A stretch of 59,638 nucleotides of DNA. It comes from Gammaproteobacteria bacterium (lineage in GTDB: Bacteria > Pseudomonadota > Gammaproteobacteria > SZUA-152). Within the stretch, counting starts at the first letter, position 1. Every line of letters begins with the position of its first letter. The stretch lies in assembly GCA_011321815.1 (NCBI GenBank), contig DROS01000033.1, positions 1 through 59,638 of the forward strand. The letters are read 5' to 3'. The translations under genes were made by a program, and so were the position numbers. The notes below the pieces were generated by a model. That model was not told where the DNA came from. It saw nothing but the letters and a program-made list of their open reading frames with translations, and searched no databases. Positions 5,495 to 48,372 of the stretch are shown here, piece by piece.

Positions 5495-5787
5495 AACAAG
5501 GAACGCATATGGAATAACTTGTACAATTACACTACAGGGTTTTGCGTCTGCTCAAACGATATCACCGGACACACAGTAAGCCTGTGCAACGATTAAGATC
5601 ATTTACGCATGGATAAAATGGGCAAATCAGAATGTACAAATTATTTCATGACCAACAACAGGCACTTAAGACACGCTGGTGAGGTATTAACATCATAACG
5701 TCACCTCGGCCAAAAACATGCCGGAGTACCCAAGGCGCTTCGTGGAGCAGGCTCAAAGAGATTAAATTCCGCTAGAATCGTTGATAT

Positions 5788-6444
5788 ATGAAAGTCCAAC
5801 TCATTGATGACCATACCCTGTTTCGCCTGGGATTAAAAAACCTGTTGGAGCGTAGCGGTATTGACGTAATTGCCGCCGCCAGCACTGGCCAGGAAGGGCT
5901 GGATATAGTCCACGAAACCAAACCGGATGTTATTTTGCTGGATATGCGCATGCCGGATATGGACGGACTGGAAGTGTTGAAGAAACTACGTGATGCAGGT
6001 GTTACCGCCCCCATCAGCATGCTCACCACCAGCGCTGAAGAACGCGATCTGGTGGAATCCCTGCGCAGCGGCGCTCAGGGTTACCTGCTGAAAGACATGG
6101 ACCCGGAAGAACTGGTTGCCGCTTTGCACAATATTGTAAAAGGTGAAACCGTGGTCGCACCACAACTTGCCGGCACCCTGGCCCGAGTCCTGCAAGGAAA
6201 ATCTGCGATACCCGAAAAGAAAACGCCCTTATCTGCACTCACCCCCCGCGAACTGGAAATCATTGAACACCTCGCCTTTGGACAAAGCAACAAAGTCATC
6301 GCCCGTGAGTTAGGCATTACAGATGGCACAGTAAAATTACACGTAAAAGCCATACTGCGAAAACTGGAAGTCAGCTCACGGGTGGAAGCCGCCGTTATTG
6401 CCGTTGAACAGGGATTGGGGCGGCGGCGTATTTCCCCCTCTTGA
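5788..6444 (+). CDS. NarL/FixJ-family response regulator
   Basis: A 218-residue regulator. The receiver domain shows the acidic pair at residues 7-8, the phospho-acceptor Asp52 in ILLDMRMP, a TTSAEE switch region and the conserved lysine in YLLKDMDP. A LuxR-type helix-turn-helix follows (LTPRELEIIEHLAFGQSNK to about residue 205). It is very probably the partner of the kinase just upstream. A 293-base gap separates them, so it may have its own promoter. No Shine-Dalgarno sequence precedes the ATG. A TAGAAT hexamer at 5773-5778 would place transcription start almost at the start codon, so a very short leader is possible. Confidence 0.9.
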   Translation: MKVQLIDDHTLFRLGLKNLLERSGIDVIAAASTGQEGLDIVHETKPDVILLDMRMPDMDGLEVLKKLRDAGVTAPISMLTTSAEERDLVESLRSGAQGYLLKDMDPEELVAALHNIVKGETVVAPQLAGTLARVLQGKSAIPEKKTPLSALTPRELEIIEHLAFGQSNKVIARELGITDGTVKLHVKAILRKLEVSSRVEAAVIAVEQGLGRRRISPS

Positions 6445-40878: not shown

Positions 40879-41346
40879 ATGTTTCACGTCGTTCTTTTTC
40901 AACCAGAGATTCCACCCAACACCGGCAATATCATTCGCCTTTGCGCCAATTGCGGTGCGCAGCTACACCTGATTCGCCCACTGGGTTTTGATATGTCGCA
41001 CAAACAACTGCGCCGCGCGGGACTGGATTATCATGAATTTTCCAAGGTACAGATTCATGACACGCTCGAAGCCTTTGTGCAAACAGTTGAACCGGCACGC
41101 CTGTTTGCCTGTTCCACCAAGGGTCAACAGAATTATACCGGGCTTAGCTATGCAAAAGGCGATGCTTTTTTATTCGGGCCGGAAACACGGGGACTGCCTG
41201 CGGATATTCTGGACTCGCTGCCACGCGAGCAACTGTTGCGTATTCCCATGCTACCCGACAACCGCAGTTTGAATCTTTCCAACGCGACAGCGATTATTAT
41301 TTATGAAGCCTGGCGGCAGCAGGGTTTTGTGGGAGCAAGTGCGTAG
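40879..41346 (+). CDS. trmL: tRNA (cytidine/uridine-34-2'-O)-methyltransferase TrmL
   Basis: A 155-residue SPOUT methyltransferase that modifies the wobble base of leucine tRNAs. Motifs: MFHVVLFQPEIPPNTGNIIR, LHLIRPLGF, FLFGPETRGLP, and the knot motif RIPMLPDNRSLNLSNATAII. The stop codon overlaps the left edge of a repeat element, after which a second, diverged copy of the gene's tail is found. Confidence 0.97.
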   Translation: MFHVVLFQPEIPPNTGNIIRLCANCGAQLHLIRPLGFDMSHKQLRRAGLDYHEFSKVQIHDTLEAFVQTVEPARLFACSTKGQQNYTGLSYAKGDAFLFGPETRGLPADILDSLPREQLLRIPMLPDNRSLNLSNATAIIIYEAWRQQGFVGASA

Positions 41347-41511
41347 GTTGGGGTGAATGTTTTTTTATGAACCCCAACATGCCAGAGCAACAAACCATCT
41401 CCAAAGCCATATTCAGGCCACCACAAATAAATTCGCCTCAACAATCAAAGCCAAAAATATTTCTACCCCATGTTATGAACATGTTGGGGTTCGTGCCTCA
41501 CCCCAACCTAC
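41343..41511. repeat. 169-base AGGTTGG-family element after trmL
   Basis: The ends GTAGGTTGGGGTGA (41343-41356) and TCACCCCAACCTAC (41498-41511) are perfect inverted repeats. An inner pair GAACCCCAACATG (41369-41381) and CATGTTGGGGTTC (41480-41492) also matches perfectly. The centre of about 98 bases is AT-rich and non-coding. It is related to the palindrome at 20554-20623. No transposase is encoded; it is MITE-like. Confidence 0.8.
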
Positions 41512-41514
41512 CGG

Positions 41515-41590
41515 GCTGAATCTTTCCAATGCAACAGCAATCATCATTGTATGAAGCCTGGCGGCAACTGAAGTTTGCAGGGACAGGTTG
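41515..41590 (+). pseudogene. Relic of a second trmL 3' end
   Basis: GAATCTTTCCAATGCAACAG and the following bases align with the trmL 3' end (41271-41330). In the first stretch the differences fall on third codon positions (AAC/AAT, GCG/GCA twice, ATT/ATC twice), leaving LNLSNATAII unchanged. Then an extra G before TATGAAGCC shifts the frame, and the tail decays. It has no start and cannot be translated as TrmL. Confidence 0.8.
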
Positions 41591-41621
41591 ATGCCCGCCG
41601 CAGAGTCTGCAAGCCCCGGAG

Positions 41622-42632
41622 TTAACCCAGCTCCGCCTTTTGATCACGGTTCAACAGAGCCTGCACAGCATCTCTTGGCTTGCGCGCCTCGTAGAGTACG
41701 GCATAAACCTGTTCGGTGATGGGCATGTCCACACCCTGACTCAGCGCCAGATCATGTACTTCGCGTGCAGTCTGCACGCCTTCCACCACCTGATCAATGG
41801 CAGCAAGCGCCTCCTCCAGACGCCTACCCTGCCCCAACGCCAAGCCGAGTTTGCGATTACGTGACTGGTCATCGGTGCAGGTCAGCACCAGATCACCCAG
41901 GCCTGCGAGCCCCATGAAGGTCTCACGCTGGCCGCCCAGGGTTTCACCCAGGCGCATCATCTCCGCCAGCCCCCGAGTAATCAATGCCGTGCGGGCATTG
42001 GCCCCATAACCCAGGCCATCGGCAATACCCGCAGCAATGGCGAGTACATTTTTCACTGCACCGCCAACCTCCACACCAGCAACGTCATCGTTTGTATAAG
42101 CACGGAAGGTTTTACTGTGCAAACGCGCCGCCATGTCCGTGGCAAACGATACGTCAGTGGACGCCACGGTCACCGCCGTGGGCAGACCTTCGGCCACTTC
42201 GCGGGCAAAGGTGGGGCCGGAAACAACGGCGGTGGCAATATCTTTGCCCAGCACTTCCTCAGCCACTTCGTGCAACAGCTTGCCGGAACCGGATTCCAGC
42301 CCCTTGGTGGCCCACGCCAGCCGGGCATCACTTTTCAGCAACGGTCGGAGTTGGGTAAGCACAGCACGAAAGGCATGACTGGGTACGACGACCAACACAT
42401 CCTGTACATCGGCCATGGCCGAAACCAGGTCTGCGTTAAGTGACAGCTGTTCAGGCAACGGTACGCCGGGCAAATAACGTTCATTACAACGCGCCGCGCT
42501 GATATCGGCGATCAGTTCCGGCTCGTGCCCCCACAGGGTCACTGAACCACCGGCACGACACAGCTGAATGGCCAGCGCAGTACCCCAGGAACCAGCACCC
42601 AGTACGAGGATGGGACTGTGCTGTTTAGTCAT
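41622..42632 (-). CDS. gpsA: Glycerol-3-phosphate dehydrogenase GpsA
   Basis: A 336-residue NAD(P)-dependent enzyme giving sn-glycerol-3-phosphate for phospholipids. Motifs: [76 protein letters not shown], and [20 protein letters not shown]. It follows secB, as in E. coli. Confidence 0.98.
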
Positions 42633-42679
42633 TCATCACATCCGTATGAGTAACATCGTCCCAAAAGTTGCATGTGCAA

Positions 42680-43171
42680 TCAATGCACAATCTCTTTAGC
42701 CGAAGCTTCGGCTTGTTGTTTGTGCTGCGCCAGCAAAGCATCAAAATTGACGGGGGCCAATAACAGCTGCGGAAACCCTCCTTTGCTGACAAGATCAGAA
42801 ATGGCTTCGCGCGCGTACGGAAACAAAATGTTTGGGCAGTAACTGCCCTGCATGTGGACCCGTTCGTCGTCGCTGAAGCCTGCTATGGTGAACACACCGG
42901 CCTGATGTGCTTCGGCCAGATAAGCCGTTTTGTCACCCAGCTTCGCAGTGACAGTCACCGTGAGCACTACCTCCATCACTTCATCAGTCAACGGTTTGCC
43001 AGCGGTCTGCAATTCCACATTGACGTCCGGCTTCCACTCTTCGGTGAAAATTTCAGGGGAATTGGGGGTCTCAAAGGAAATATCTTTGAGGTAAATTTTT
43101 TGCAGAGTAAATTGCTGCTCAGCTTGCTTGTCGCCTGCGGCGGCATTTTGTTCTTCTTTATCATCTGACAT
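42680..43171 (-). CDS. secB: Protein-export chaperone SecB
   Basis: A 163-residue cytoplasmic chaperone that holds precursors for SecA. QQFTLQKIYLKDISFETPNS, then EVVLTVTVTAKLGDKTAYLA, EAHQAGVFTIAGF and PNILFPYAREAISDLVSKGG are the family hallmarks. The acidic C-terminal groove region FPQLLLAPVNFDAL is complete. It lies between trxC and gpsA. Confidence 0.98.
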   Translation of the reverse strand: MSDDKEEQNAAAGDKQAEQQFTLQKIYLKDISFETPNSPEIFTEEWKPDVNVELQTAGKPLTDEVMEVVLTVTVTAKLGDKTAYLAEAHQAGVFTIAGFSDDERVHMQGSYCPNILFPYAREAISDLVSKGGFPQLLLAPVNFDALLAQHKQQAEASAKEIVH

Positions 43172-43227
43172 GAGTGGTATTCCAAGTTAGGCCCAAAACG
43201 GGCGGAAAGAAAAAAGATTTTAACGGG

Positions 43228-43674
43228 TTACGGATATTTGCGCACCTGCTCACCAACCCAGGCCAGCAGGCCAGACAAGTCCAGAGCACCGGACATGCGC
43301 GCAATTTCTTTACCCTGCCTGAAAATCAGCAGCGTGGGAATGCTGCGGATGGCCAGTTGTGCAGACAGTGCCTGTTCCTGTTCTGAGTTAATTTTCACCA
43401 GGCGCATGTCAGGTTCGAGTTGACCGGCTGCTTCGGCAAACACCGGTGACATCATCTTGCAAGGGCCGCACCACGCGGCCCAAAAATCCACCAGCAGGGG
43501 CAGATCATTTTTGGTGAGATGGCGCTGAAAACGGGCCTGATTGAGATTAAGCGGCTCACCCGTAAACAGTGGTTTGTGGCAGACACCACACGAACCACCG
43601 GCGGCCAACTTCGCCTGTGGCACCCGGTTGATGCTGTCACAGTGGGGACAGACAATGTGCAAACTATCTTTCAT
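43228..43674 (-). CDS. trxC: Thioredoxin 2 (TrxC)
   Basis: A 148-residue thioredoxin with an N-terminal zinc finger of four cysteines (VCPHCDSINRVP; GGSCGVCHKPLF) and the active site FWAAWCGPCKMM. The finger distinguishes TrxC from TrxA. It sits between grxC and secB, an addition compared with the E. coli yibN-grxC-secB order. Confidence 0.95.
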   Translation of the reverse strand: MKDSLHIVCPHCDSINRVPQAKLAAGGSCGVCHKPLFTGEPLNLNQARFQRHLTKNDLPLLVDFWAAWCGPCKMMSPVFAEAAGQLEPDMRLVKINSEQEQALSAQLAIRSIPTLLIFRQGKEIARMSGALDLSGLLAWVGEQVRKYP

Positions 43675-43716
43675 GAACGTTGTGTGGGGCCGATGAACGG
43701 CTAATTCAAGCCCCGC

Positions 43717-43995
43717 CTATTGCAGTCCCAGCAACGGATCAAGCTCATCATCCATATCCAGCTCAACCAGCTCGTCAAAACCACCGATGTGTTGATCGCC
43801 AATAAAAATCTGTGGCACGGAATCACGCCCGGCACGCTGCTCCATTTCCTCGCGCTTACCCGCCACCTCATCAACACGGATTTCCAGATAATCCACGCCC
43901 TTTTTTTCCAGCAGGCTTTTTGCTCCCGCGCAATAACCACAAAAGGCGGCTGTATACATAACCACTTGGGGTTGCTCGCTCACAGTTTCGCCCAT
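43717..43995 (-). CDS. grxC: Glutaredoxin 3 (GrxC)
   Basis: A 92-residue dithiol glutaredoxin with active site AAFCGYCAGAKSLL (CGYC instead of the more common CPYC), the cis-proline region SVPQIFIGDQHIGGFDEL, and an acidic C-terminus. The ATG at 43995 follows the rhodanese stop by 20 bases and has GGAAG upstream. A much longer open frame overlaps the rhodanese gene and is not used. Confidence 0.94.
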   Translation of the reverse strand: MGETVSEQPQVVMYTAAFCGYCAGAKSLLEKKGVDYLEIRVDEVAGKREEMEQRAGRDSVPQIFIGDQHIGGFDELVELDMDDELDPLLGLQ

Positions 43996-44014
43996 GTCTT
44001 CCGGCACATGTGCA

Positions 44015-44539
44015 TCACTTGGTTTCCGCATTGTCCGGCTTGGATTTTTCAGATTCAGATTCAGCCCCGGATTCAGCCTCGGGTTCAGGCTCAGATTTAC
44101 CCGGCTCGGGCGGCTTGCCGACCTCAGTTGTAGTCGGCAGATTGATGCGTTCCCAGGCCAGCATGCCACCACCGATGTTATGTACATTGGTAAAACCCTG
44201 TTTTTTCAGCTTGGTCGCCGCTTGTGCAGAACGGGCACCGGAACGGCACACCAGCACTACCGCATCATTTTTGTACGCCTGCAATTCCTGAATGCGGTCA
44301 TCCAGCACACCTAATGGGATATGAAGCGCATTCATCACATGACCCTGCTGGTATTCCTTTTCAGTACGCACATCCACTACCAGCGCATTCTTGTGGTTGA
44401 TCAGCTGCACCGCCTCGCTGGCCAACACCATGACCACTGCGCTTGGCCCAAACCAGGTACGCGCCAATAAAAACAAAATAATGGCCAGGGCAAGAAACAA
44501 TTCCCAGTTGCCGCTGACAAATTGACCAAACTCCTGCAT
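44015..44539 (-). CDS. yibN: Membrane-anchored rhodanese-like protein YibN
   Basis: A 174-residue protein: one N-terminal membrane helix (LFLALAIILFLLARTWFG) and a single rhodanese domain with NHKNALVVDVRTEKEYQQGH and the active-site cysteine in VVLVCRSGARSAQAATKL. The tail is a low-complexity acidic run of SEPEPE/SES type. E. coli has the same gene order (yibN-grxC-secB-gpsA). It probably transfers sulfane sulfur at the inner membrane. The neighbouring regulator suggests reactive-sulfur control. Confidence 0.93.
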   Translation of the reverse strand: MQEFGQFVSGNWELFLALAIILFLLARTWFGPSAVVMVLASEAVQLINHKNALVVDVRTEKEYQQGHVMNALHIPLGVLDDRIQELQAYKNDAVVLVCRSGARSAQAATKLKKQGFTNVHNIGGGMLAWERINLPTTTEVGKPPEPGKSEPEPEAESGAESESEKSKPDNAETK

Positions 44540-44807
44540 AACACTCTTTTAAACCTGTATTTTGAATTGTGCGCTGAAAACCGGATGGCCCAGCGCCACA
44601 TTAATTGCACTACTCAATGAGCACCCTCGTTGAAGCGCGTCAAGCACGGTGGTGGCTCAAAGCCCCCATCAGCCAAGCATTGGCTGGGCACTATATAGAC
44701 AGAGATCAAAAAAGAAAAGTGCCTGTCAACAAGGTTTCAGGCAAGAACAGGAATCCGTTAAAAACCCGGAAAATGTCCGGAGCAACGAGAAAGGCGGTGC
44801 TCAACGC

Positions 44808-45119
44808 TTAATCCGGATTACAGAAGACCTCACGCATCATGCTGATCAGGCGCAAAGTACGCCCATCACCCACCCGGTAAAAGACGCGATTGGCATCTTT
44901 CCGCGACACCAAAATACCCTTGTCACGCAGTATGGCCAGGTGCTGGGAAATATTGCTCTGCGAGGTACCGACCATGGCAACAATATCCTGCACACTGATT
45001 TCCTGATCCCCCAAAGCGCAGAGAATTTTCAGCCGCAGCGGATGCGACATGGCCTTGATGGAGCGGGAAGCCCTCTCAATATCTTCATCACGCGTAATCA
45101 GATGTTCCATCGTATTCAT
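44808..45119 (-). CDS. ArsR-family regulator of the SqrR/BigR (persulfide-sensor) type
   Basis: A 103-residue winged-helix repressor: AMSHPLRLKILCALGDQEIS, the recognition helix TSQSNISQHLAILRDKGIL, and RKDANRVFYRVGD. It lacks the CVC metal box of ArsR/SmtB. It has exactly two cysteines, Cys34 (KILCAL) and Cys100 (EVFCNPD), 66 residues apart. From memory this is the spacing of Cys41/Cys107 in SqrR and Cys42/Cys108 in BigR, which sense persulfides by bridging these residues. It reads towards yibN (268-base gap). A short palindrome (AAATGCATTT, 45139-45148) just upstream could be its operator. Confidence 0.85.
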   Translation of the reverse strand: MNTMEHLITRDEDIERASRSIKAMSHPLRLKILCALGDQEISVQDIVAMVGTSQSNISQHLAILRDKGILVSRKDANRVFYRVGDGRTLRLISMMREVFCNPD

Positions 45120-45545
45120 ACATCATCACCATAAAATCAAATGCATTTTAATAGGCTGTCGAAAAAGACATCCTGCCCCTTTCAAAACACGAAAAGTAAA
45201 AGCTTTGCAATCTTCGATTTTACCGACACATCCATATTATCGGAACAACCCGTTAAAAAGTCGCGCACCCCGCAGAAAAACGTCGCCATACCGGGTAACC
45301 TGACACTACTTCTCACTATACAGCATCCCGCAACTTGGACAATTAATAATATTCGCATTAATGTCACAGGCACACCAACATCCCGGCTCAGACCTGAATC
45401 CCCCCACCAAAACCGGTCCTCAAAAATATTTGGGGTATTAAAGATCAGGCGGCACAGCAAATACTTTTCACAAATCGAAAAAATCATTTAAAATGGCCTA
45501 TTCACATCCACCTCATCCTTAATTCTAAAGAGCAAGCCTGAGTAC
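45120..45545. other. 426-base divergent region between ArsR gene and gpmI
   Basis: No gene is supported; frames here are short and lack family features. It carries the promoters of both divergent genes. The palindrome AAATGCATTT at 45139-45148 is close to the ArsR start. The stretch is AT-rich near gpmI. Confidence 0.4.
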
Positions 45546-47123
45546 ATGCCAAGCACACCAGCGCCCGTGATGACCATCATCCTGGATGGTTGGGGTTATA
45601 GCGAAGACCCTGAATCCAATGCCATTGCCAATGCCAATACCCCAACATGGGATGCGCTGTGGGCGAAATACCCGCACACGCTGATCAAGGGCTCCGGCCC
45701 GGAAGTCGGCCTGCCCAGCGGACAAATGGGTAACTCCGAAGTCGGCCACCTGAATCTGGGGGCAGGGCGGGTTGTATATCAGGAGTTCACCCGTGTCAGC
45801 CGCGCCATTCGCACCGGCTCGTTTTTCACCAACCAGACATTGACCGATGCAGTGGATTTAAGCATTAAGACCGATCGCGCCGTACACATCCTCGGCCTGC
45901 TTTCCGACGGCGGCGTACACAGCCACGAAGAACATATCTGCGCCATGGTCAAACTGGCTGTGGAGCGTGGTGCAAAGCATGTTTACCTGCACGCCTTTCT
46001 GGATGGCCGTGATACCGCACCCAGAAGTGCAAAAACCTATATTGTCGCCATGCAAAAAACCTTCGATGAGCTGGGCGGTGGACGCTTTGCCTCTATCATC
46101 GGTCGTTATTACGCCATGGATCGAGACCACCGCTGGCCCCGGGTGCAGGCTGCGTATGACCTCATCACCCAGGGGAAAAGCGAATTCGAGGCGCCGACTG
46201 CCCAGGCTGCCGTAGATGCCGCTTATGCCCGCGATGAATCCGACGAATTCATCCAGGCCACACGCATTGTACCGCCGGGCGAAACCCCTGTGGAACTGCG
46301 TGATGGCGACGTGCTGGTCTTCATGAACTATCGTTCCGACCGGGCGCGGCAAATTACCCGCCCCTTCATTGAACCCGATTTTGACTGTTTCAAACGCACC
46401 GTTACCCCCAGACTGGGCGCCTTTGTCAGCCTCACCGAATACAGTGCAGATTTTGATGTTCCCGTCGCCTTTCCCCCGGAACGGCTGCATAACGTATTTG
46501 GTGAGTACATCGCCGACCTCGGCCTGCGCCAGCTACGCATTGCCGAAACCGAAAAATACGCCCACGTCACCTTCTTTTTTAATGGCGGCCGTGAAGAACC
46601 CTTCGACGGCGAAGACCGCATTCTGGTGCCCTCGCCGGACGTGGCCACTTACGATCTGCAACCCGAAATGAGCGCACCGGAACTCACCGATAAACTGGTG
46701 GAGGCCATTCTCAGCAAAAAATATGACGCCATTATCTGTAACTACGCCAACCCGGATATGGTGGGCCATACCGGCAATCTCAAAGCCACCATCCAGGCCA
46801 TTGAGGCGCTGGATACCTGTCTCGCCCGCGTCGTCAACGCGCTGGAATCTGTCGGTGGCGAGGCGCTGATAACCGCCGATCACGGCAATGCCGAATTGCT
46901 CAATAATAAAGAAACGGGACAGGCACACACCGCCCATACCTCCAACCCGGTACCACTGATTTATCTGGGTCGTCCCGGCAGCCTGGCTGACACCGGCGCA
47001 CTGTGCGACATCGCCCCTACCATGCTCAAACTCATGGGGGTAGACATCCCCACCGAAATGGGTGGACGCAACCTGGTTACGCTGGCCACGGACGATAATG
47101 TGGCGGGAGATGAAAACACTTAA
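45546..47123 (+). CDS. gpmI: 2,3-bisphosphoglycerate-independent phosphoglycerate mutase
   Basis: A 525-residue manganese enzyme of glycolysis. Alkaline-phosphatase-like domain: [17 protein letters not shown], nucleophile Ser64 in [15 protein letters not shown], and the C-terminal metal motifs [14 protein letters not shown] and [12 protein letters not shown]. The insertion domain has [15 protein letters not shown] and [16 protein letters not shown]. First gene of the gpmI-envC-ctpA-yibQ run, the order known from E. coli and relatives. Confidence 0.98.
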
Positions 47124-48372
47124 CCCCTCCCGTCGTTCCACTGGTGTTCCGGCAACCACTGCTGGCGGAAAATTCGCCGCCTTGCTGTTATTGCTCACAT
47201 TGGGCAGCTGGCCACCAGTATCACTGGCCGATAACAGCGGTCCGGCAGACAGTCGAAAACTGGAACAGCTACGACAGCAAATCCAGGTATTGCGCAGCGA
47301 ACTGGATTCCGACGTGCAGCGCAAACAGGGGCTGCAATCCAGACTGCGACGCAGCGAACGCCACATCGGCAAAGTCGTCGCCCTGCTGAAAAAGCTCAAA
47401 CACCAACTGCGCACGCAACAGCGTGAGTTGAAAAAACTCAACACCCGCCGCAACAAATTACAATCGAATCTGCACAAACACCGCGTTGCACTGGCCCGGC
47501 AAATTCGCGCGGCCTACACCATCGGCCAACAGGAATACGTGAAAATCCTACTCAATCAGCAGGACCCCGCCGCTGTCACCCGCACCCTCACGTATTACGA
47601 TTATTTTCATCGTGCCCGCCTGGCGCGCATGCAGGACATCGACAAAGCTCTCGCCGAACTGAGCACCCTGGAAAAAAGGATTCAGCAAAAAACCCGGAAG
47701 CTGGAAAAAAACCGCGAGGAACAAAACCGCGAAAAGACGCAACTGGAAAAAACCCGGCAACGACGCACCAGCGTACTCGCCAAATTGCAACAACAAATTC
47801 TTGCCAAGGGTGAACGTCTGTCGTTGATGGAAGAAGACAAACGCCGCCTGCAACGCCTGCTGGATAGTCTGGCCACCGTTTCACCCCCAAGCCCGGCATC
47901 ACCGGACGGCCGCGAATCAGGGCTGTCCTCTGAAGGCAGCGAACACATGCCTTTTGCCAAACTGCGCGGGCAATTGCGCTGGCCATCACGCGGCCGGCTG
48001 ACCACCCGCTACGGCAGCCCACGCAAAATCGGCAAACTCAAATGGCAGGGCGTCAATATCAGCGCCCCTGAAGGCACAGAGGTAAGCGCCATTTCCTATG
48101 GGCGTGTGGCGTTCTCCGATTGGCTGCGGGGCTTTGGCCTGCTCATCATCATTGACCATGGTGACGGTTACATGAGTCTGTACGGCGGCAATCAAAGCTT
48201 GTTCAAAGAAGTGGGGGACTGGGTGGAAGCGGGTGAGGTTATTGCCAGCATGGGCAAAAGCGGCGGGCGCAAAGACTCCGCCCTGTATTTTGAAATTCGC
48301 CACAATGGCAAACCCAGCAACCCGCTCAAGTGGTGCCGAAACAAGCCGAAGAGAATCTCAGCACCTTCGTGA
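47110..48372 (+). CDS. envC: Murein hydrolase activator EnvC
   Basis: A 420-residue periplasmic protein. Signal peptide [19 protein letters not shown], then a long coiled coil (about residues 45-255, e.g. [20 protein letters not shown]) and a C-terminal LytM domain. The LytM domain has [20 protein letters not shown] and [15 protein letters not shown] but lacks the full set of zinc ligands of active M23 peptidases, as EnvC does. It would activate division amidases through FtsEX. The start at 47110 overlaps gpmI by 14 bases; an ATG at 47098 is an alternative. Confidence 0.93.

Follow-up and report, generated by a model that had tools for sequence, protein, structure and literature searches.

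The window analysed here, a stretch of 59,638 nucleotides, carries an ArsR-type regulator gene which in our judgement probably encodes a persulfide-sensing repressor of its own yibN run, with an autoregulation that has probably been lost or rewired in the clade of the window. The assignment of the protein to the persulfide-sensor type of ArsR proteins is supported by sequence comparison, and the best reading is that the regulator represents an orthologue group of its own within the known persulfide-sensor kind. The regulator is a common feature of the locus, and the arrangement is shared by many genomes while being absent from this place in E. coli. The genes and the two cysteine codons are as follows.

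41622..42632, minus strand: gpsA, glycerol-3-phosphate dehydrogenase (family search)
42680..43171, minus strand: secB, export chaperone (family search)
43228..43674, minus strand: trxC, thioredoxin 2 with an N-terminal zinc ribbon (NF008229 above cut-off)
about 43717..44007, start codon uncertain, minus strand: grxC, glutaredoxin 3 with CGYC (TIGR02181 above cut-off)
44015..44539, minus strand: yibN, rhodanese of 174 amino acids with the loop CRSGARS (Rhodanese PF00581)
44808..45119, minus strand: arsR-type regulator gene (P0001), intact open reading frame of 103 amino acids
44820..44822, minus strand: Cys100 codon, alpha5 position, aligned with the C-terminal cysteine of BigR, YgaV and HlyU
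45018..45020, minus strand: Cys34 codon, alpha2 position, aligned with the first cysteine of BigR, YgaV and HlyU
45546..47123, plus strand: gpmI, divergent phosphoglycerate mutase, identified by its translation and by comparison with the gene order of E. coli

Strand, order and family matches confirm the sequence-only reading in that arsR reads toward yibN, grxC and trxC; on the same strand secB and gpsA follow. The earlier statement that yibN-grxC-secB-gpsA of E. coli lacks the regulator also holds for K-12, where the order is gpmM / yibN-grxC-secB-gpsA-cysE with no regulator in between. No metal transporter was found among the named neighbours of arsR. YibN is probably membrane-anchored via an N-terminal hydrophobic stretch; this anchor, and CRSGARS as the active-site loop, are what we presume from the translation. 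In the sister locus L005, yibN (5556-6347) is a 263-residue fusion of rhodanese and glutaredoxin with a further, separate grxC behind it, and the window YibN stops where the glutaredoxin domain of that fusion would start. The window's own genome also encodes a 248-residue ArsR-rhodanese fusion (L003:223-969, G000 contig C68), and long open frames with both ArsR and rhodanese matches are seen in relatives as well, e.g. L108 and L111-L113.

The regulator matches the Pfam family HTH_5 with 51.1 bits (cut-off 22), and the ArsR winged-helix domain is thus present. Its only cysteines are Cys34 and Cys100, placed on the helices by alignment and lying 66 residues apart, and the 103 residues hold no CxC box, just as had been noted originally. 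The statement that SqrR and BigR share this spacing proved right as well: the respective papers give C41/C107 for SqrR (PMC9995734) and C42/C108 for BigR (PMC5823870), and likewise 66 residues for HlyU (C38/C104, PMC10509353) and SoxR (C50/C116, PMC10451225), while E. coli YgaV has C31/C98 with a spacing of 67 (PMC9774250).

The same residues were followed in 165 loci of relatives, some of them duplicated, 145 having non-redundant upstream DNA. The expression used for the cysteines missed three loci, one cut at a contig end and two with both cysteines visible. A spacing of 66 was kept in 154 of the 162 measurable loci (67 in six, 68 in one and 71 in one), and the agreement is for this reason more than chance. 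Exactly two cysteines from about residue 11 on were present in 139 of the 165 loci and the recognition helix TSQSN[IV]SQHL in 156; C[VAS]C was seen in two.

In a comparison with the PDB, which returned 29 solved sequences at E 0.001 with deposit titles naming BigR, ygaV, HlyU and NolR, the best seven matches of the window protein were BigR (63.5 bits), YgaV, three HlyU-type chains and two SqrR chains (55.4 bits). We take 13ct and 6o8k to be the SqrR chains and 5znx to be an HlyU chain. Next came NolR (48.4), followed by the nickel sensor SrnR (38.4), CadC (35.2), SmtB (33.1) and CzrA (25.3 bits); SrnR, the best metal sensor, thus scores 17 bits under the lowest persulfide sensor, and CadC and SmtB at least 20 under. 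The NCBIfam equivalog for BigR, NF040642, gave 72.4 bits and its cut-off of 155 was not reached.

The ArsR tree was built from 55 rows and 95 columns, with a warning of the program about long branches, and the row L186 (49% identity) was left out under a limit of 55%. In this tree 36 rows of the regulator group, including the window, form one clade (84/93), and six characterised or annotated persulfide sensors form another together with three uncharacterised plasmid proteins (97/89). The five rows labelled as metal sensors fall outside (96/80); SmtB, E. coli ArsR and the arsenic-type paralogue of the window's own genome are thereby kept apart from the regulator group. The fork uniting the regulator group with the persulfide clade is weak (80/71, from 95 columns with long branches) and also has Rv0081 inside. 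The protein accordingly stands apart from the metal sensors and in a clade of its own, which this weak fork joins to the characterised persulfide sensors. Anatomy of a persulfide sensor and a separate clade, taken together, suggest that the regulator would work like a persulfide sensor, yet as an orthologue group of its own.

It is very improbable, in the light of these comparisons, that the protein senses a metal or metalloid in the manner of ArsR/SmtB. The NCBIfam subfamily 'metalloregulator ArsR/SmtB' does match with 82.2 bits (cut-off 55), a name that is applied very widely across the superfamily; against it stand the missing CxC box, the position of SmtB, E. coli ArsR and the paralogue in the tree, the gap in PDB scores and the neighbours without a metal transporter.

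The distribution of the regulator was assessed in a sample of 370 genomes of the class, for which a completeness of 90 or more was requested. A match at E 1e-25 was found in 187 of the 370 genomes and in 135 of 272 genera; carriers among the best 80 matches include Thiorhodospira, Thiohalophilus, Thiohalocapsa, Thioalkalivibrio, Thiomargarita and Competibacteraceae. The gene yibN lies 3' of arsR in 78 of the 80 named loci (the best 80 matches), and in 151 of the 159 loci where 0.9 kb or more of downstream sequence was available. This gene order is still seen where the orthologue has only 57-60% identity, and the three small genomes G058, G147 and G246 (1.0-1.1 Mb) have it too; yibN was not seen beside arsR in the distant loci L150, L151, L153, L160, L172 and L184-L187. 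Each of the 24 genomes searched in the window's order, its own included, matches the regulator at E 1e-5. In 22 of them the orthologue is nearly full length, G017 has the gene broken across two reading frames, and G015 shows only a fragment where a contig ends.

The regulator was not gained locally, as 187 of the 370 sampled genomes carry it. The suggestion that the conserved cluster had been placed under sulfur control 'here' was therefore not borne out, and of the proposed persulfide-sensing repressor it is the kind of protein that stands, by PDB ranking, cysteine pair, tree and the neighbouring yibN. No published description of the regulator at this locus was found among the titles and abstract openings listed from openly accessible journals.

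Where 4.2 kb of downstream sequence was available (72 loci), yibN was found in 68, grxC in 37 and trxC in 23, counts in which distant copies may be missed. They bear on the unlikely case of a general thiol-redox sensor, responding to peroxide or disulfide and serving glutaredoxin and thioredoxin after the fashion of RexT and trxA2. In the window grxC and trxC do lie downstream, and RexT, an ArsR protein, is reported to control a thioredoxin gene on H2O2 (PMC8960804). RexT, however, relies on the adjacent Cys40/Cys41 according to the same source, and the window protein, having only Cys34 and Cys100, holds no such neighbouring pair in alpha3. RexT (7txm) was also missing from the PDB hits at E 0.001 (29 in all), PMC10509353 describes HlyU, with the same cysteine pair, as unreactive to H2O2 or GSSG, and the partner kept in nearly all of the 72 loci is yibN rather than grxC or trxC.

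Sulfur oxidation was used as a further point of comparison. A soxB match at E below 1e-100 was found in 161 of the 370 genomes, 159 of them above the curated cut-off. Regulator and soxB occur together in 143 genomes, soxB only in 18, the regulator only in 44 and neither in 165, an odds ratio of about 30 if genomes are counted as independent of ancestry; the window's genome has both. In the families f31, f49, f77 and f87 the regulator is found whether or not a genome has soxB, and among the genomes listed for f3 and f128 the two genes point in opposite directions. The enrichment of soxB among carriers is one between lineages only, and we do not take it as proof, because it follows lineages and the regulator does not track soxB in the mixed families examined.

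Upstream of arsR most relatives share a DNA element. An EM motif of 28 bases, aTATTATTGTATAATGTTTTANTaATAa, was obtained from the 145 non-redundant regions with a log-likelihood of 1386 versus 146 for shuffled regions, and holds a 13-base palindromic core ATTAT-N3-ATAAT. The dyad TATTA-N16-TAATA with at most one mismatch occurs in 71 of the 145 regions compared with 7 in shuffles; the same halves occur in 19 at N15 and 14 at N17, and the counts at N8 (53) and N13 (36) are also raised, which we read as overlapping half-sites of the same motif. The motif reaches at least 15 bits upstream of arsR in 111 of 163 regions and stays below in 52. Since it was trained on the regions that were then scored, the test is provided by two controls and not by this figure. 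None of 318 downstream single-strand stretches reached 15 bits (highest 13.3), nor did any of 20 regions upstream of gpmI in 19 genomes scored as regulator-less (highest 13.8). For the latter control gpmI was sought in 30 genomes in which the regulator search had no hit at E 1e-25; 20 had the gene and one of these gave too short a region; the control locus L220 carries a diverged arsR of 49% identity. The E. coli gap also holds no motif. By divergent gene, the motif is kept in 85 of 111 regions next to gpmI, 19 of 31 next to envC and 3 of 10 next to ctpA. Part of its conservation may reflect a promoter, as its centre resembles a -10 box.

Two other candidates came from these regions. A second dyad near the gpmI start, TTAGA-N5-TCTAA, has an ArsR-like spacing and occurs in 36 of the 145 regions (other spacings give 0 to 6), e.g. 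in L009 and at about 1480-1520 in L012, and is absent in the window; it was left unassigned, being present also in 2 of the 20 regions without regulator. A second EM motif over 520 bases was dropped as it ran into gpmI coding sequence.

In 12 genomes the 14-mer core was searched with one mismatch, giving 10 matches at arsR and 8 elsewhere, and 8 for the reversed control; these genomes were hand-picked, seven of them after high motif scores at arsR had been seen. At this stringency the core is a single-site element, and looser sites could exist. The result also bears on a global regulator like NolR, which would have no inducer acting at these cysteines and would owe its conservation to many targets. 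The median identity to the window in the 80 named loci is 85% for ArsR, 71 for gpmI, 59 for gpsA, 56 for secB and 40 for yibN, a lead of ArsR that is partly favoured because the loci were picked by ArsR similarity; in more distant loci ArsR as a rule still exceeds its neighbours. This far better conservation, and NolR, described as having no cysteine (PMC8960804), being the next PDB match after the persulfide sensors, would fit such a role. Against it, almost all of the 165 loci retain both cysteines at their usual distance, and near-identical operator copies elsewhere do not exceed the control in the 12 genomes. We rate a NolR-like regulator as improbable, and prefer a persulfide-sensing repressor that in most relatives likely regulates itself via the conserved element and controls the yibN run.

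The clade of the window departs from this arrangement. In the window the motif scores 2.2 bits at best, and the values for L005 and L086-L091 range from 0.1 to 10.3; L104, which belongs to the same genus, reaches 33.8. The element has been lost in the window and in six sister genomes (of which L005 and L086 appear to be the same one), and is weak or absent also in three further loci from the family, L094, L101 and L106. L104 matches the dyad pattern exactly. In G017, of the same genus (contig C27:8611-8909), the upstream match has one mismatch, and arsR is the copy split over two frames. The longer operator pattern has no match anywhere in the window's genome, a loose pattern gives 18 matches there versus 20 for the control with none at arsR, and over 12 genomes of the window's genus the longer pattern gives 20 versus 16 for the control. 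Around arsR the window shows the following sites.

44688..44718, minus strand: promoter-like block before yibN, TTTTCTTTTTTGATCTCTGTCTATATAGTGC, common to close relatives
44765..44781, minus strand: weak terminator-like hairpin directly 3' of arsR (region count 4, 2.8 expected)
45132..45150, minus strand: dyad TAAAAT-N7-ATTTTA containing AAATGCATTT, from the alignment of close kin
45315..45353, minus strand: promoter-like block AATATTATTAATT (TTGTCC, 16 bases, TATAGT), conserved in close kin

The 10-bp palindrome AAATGCATTT, put forward earlier as an operator candidate, does exist upstream of arsR at 45139-45148. As a perfect palindrome it is not conserved, because the six sister genomes read AAATGTATTT, and it lies outside the family motif; TAAAAT-N7-ATTTTA was present in 8 of the 102 loci, among them the window as well as L005 and L086. 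A conserved operator at this palindrome was rejected, most relatives sharing another element that is absent from the window, and the site is at most a clade-specific candidate. In the block at 45315-45353, CTGTATAGT lines up with the middle of the L104 site, i.e. of the lost operator; promoter-like sites in the arsR region number 3 with 2.7 expected. The SqrR site ATTC-N8-GAAT, with at most one mismatch, does not occur in the arsR-gpmI gap (45120-45545) and has 27 matches over the whole window with 25 expected, and an SqrR-type site was rejected as local operator. Near gpmI an inverted repeat of 91%, AAAAATATTTG / CAAATACTTTT with 25 bases between, is located at 45422-45468.

Between arsR and yibN the window has a gap of 268 bases, in which no inverted repeats of at least 8 were found; an Rfam search of 41000-47500 gave no RNA element at gathering score. 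Co-transcription of arsR and yibN in the window is doubtful on account of this gap, the terminator-like hairpin at chance level and the promoter-like block before yibN. Control of yibN by arsR in the window is likewise doubtful, and autoregulation has probably been lost or rewired in its clade.

In the proposed mechanism the protein would be a dimeric winged-helix repressor which binds DNA in the reduced state. Rising persulfides or polysulfides would lead to a polysulfide bridge between Cys34 and Cys100 within one chain and to release of the DNA, allowing expression of the rhodanese, glutaredoxin and thioredoxin genes, whose products would move and reduce sulfane sulfur. Most relatives would repress their own promoter through the single TATTA-N16-TAATA site over the -10-like box, and through the same site the arsR-yibN-(grxC)-(trxC)-secB-gpsA run. 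As this site has decayed in the window's clade, the protein there probably uses another site or has lost autoregulation.

If this is true, orthologues of one sulfur sensor are present in about half of the sampled class genomes, and the single predicted operator together with a defined set of target genes makes such a sensor simple to test. Sulfane sulfur would be linked to glutaredoxin, thioredoxin, the SecB chaperone and GpsA, and the species that keep the operator could be set against those that have lost it as a natural comparison. A wider reading, which we put forward tentatively and with less than even confidence, is an old single-operon persulfide switch of Gammaproteobacteria: the ancestral yibN-grxC-secB-gpsA run would have been under a dedicated sulfane-sulfur repressor, which is missing from the E. 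coli locus, and the window's clade would have been cut from its own operator. Such a switch would couple the sulfur load of the cell to the repair of thiols, the export of proteins and the supply of phospholipid precursors, and would have been kept in many soxB genomes, including three of about 1 Mb.

The known persulfide-sensing ArsR proteins, which form cluster 4 of the network in PMC10509353, resemble the window protein to different degrees. SoxR and sHdrR of the sulfur oxidiser Hyphomicrobium denitrificans are described as sulfane-sulfur repressors with the same cysteine pair; they are alphaproteobacterial, control sox, shdr and other genes, and are likened here by description and not by sequence (PMC10451225, PMC12423496). 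HlyU of Vibrio has the same cysteine spacing and a similar PDB score and is reported to be persulfide-specific in vitro; unlike the repressor proposed for the window, it is an activator by counter-silencing with other targets (PMC10509353). In E. coli, YgaV adjoins the rhodanese gene ygaP and has two conserved cysteines, as in the window, but with the spacing of 67 (PMC9774250) and at another genomic place. SqrR of Rhodobacter capsulatus shares the spacing of 66 and is reported to target a rhodanese-domain gene and sqr (PMC9995734); its site ATTC-N8-GAAT (PMC9774250), however, is not in the arsR-gpmI gap of the window, and it belongs to a separate clade. BigR of Xylella and Agrobacterium differs by the score of 72.4 against the cut-off of 155, by the lack of blh among the window neighbours seen and by its separate clade. 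It shares with the window protein the ArsR fold and the cysteines 66 apart, its operon holds a sulfur-transferase gene comparable to the yibN run, and its reported binding at the -10 region of its own operon can be compared with the element that the relatives carry over a -10-like box (PMC5823870).
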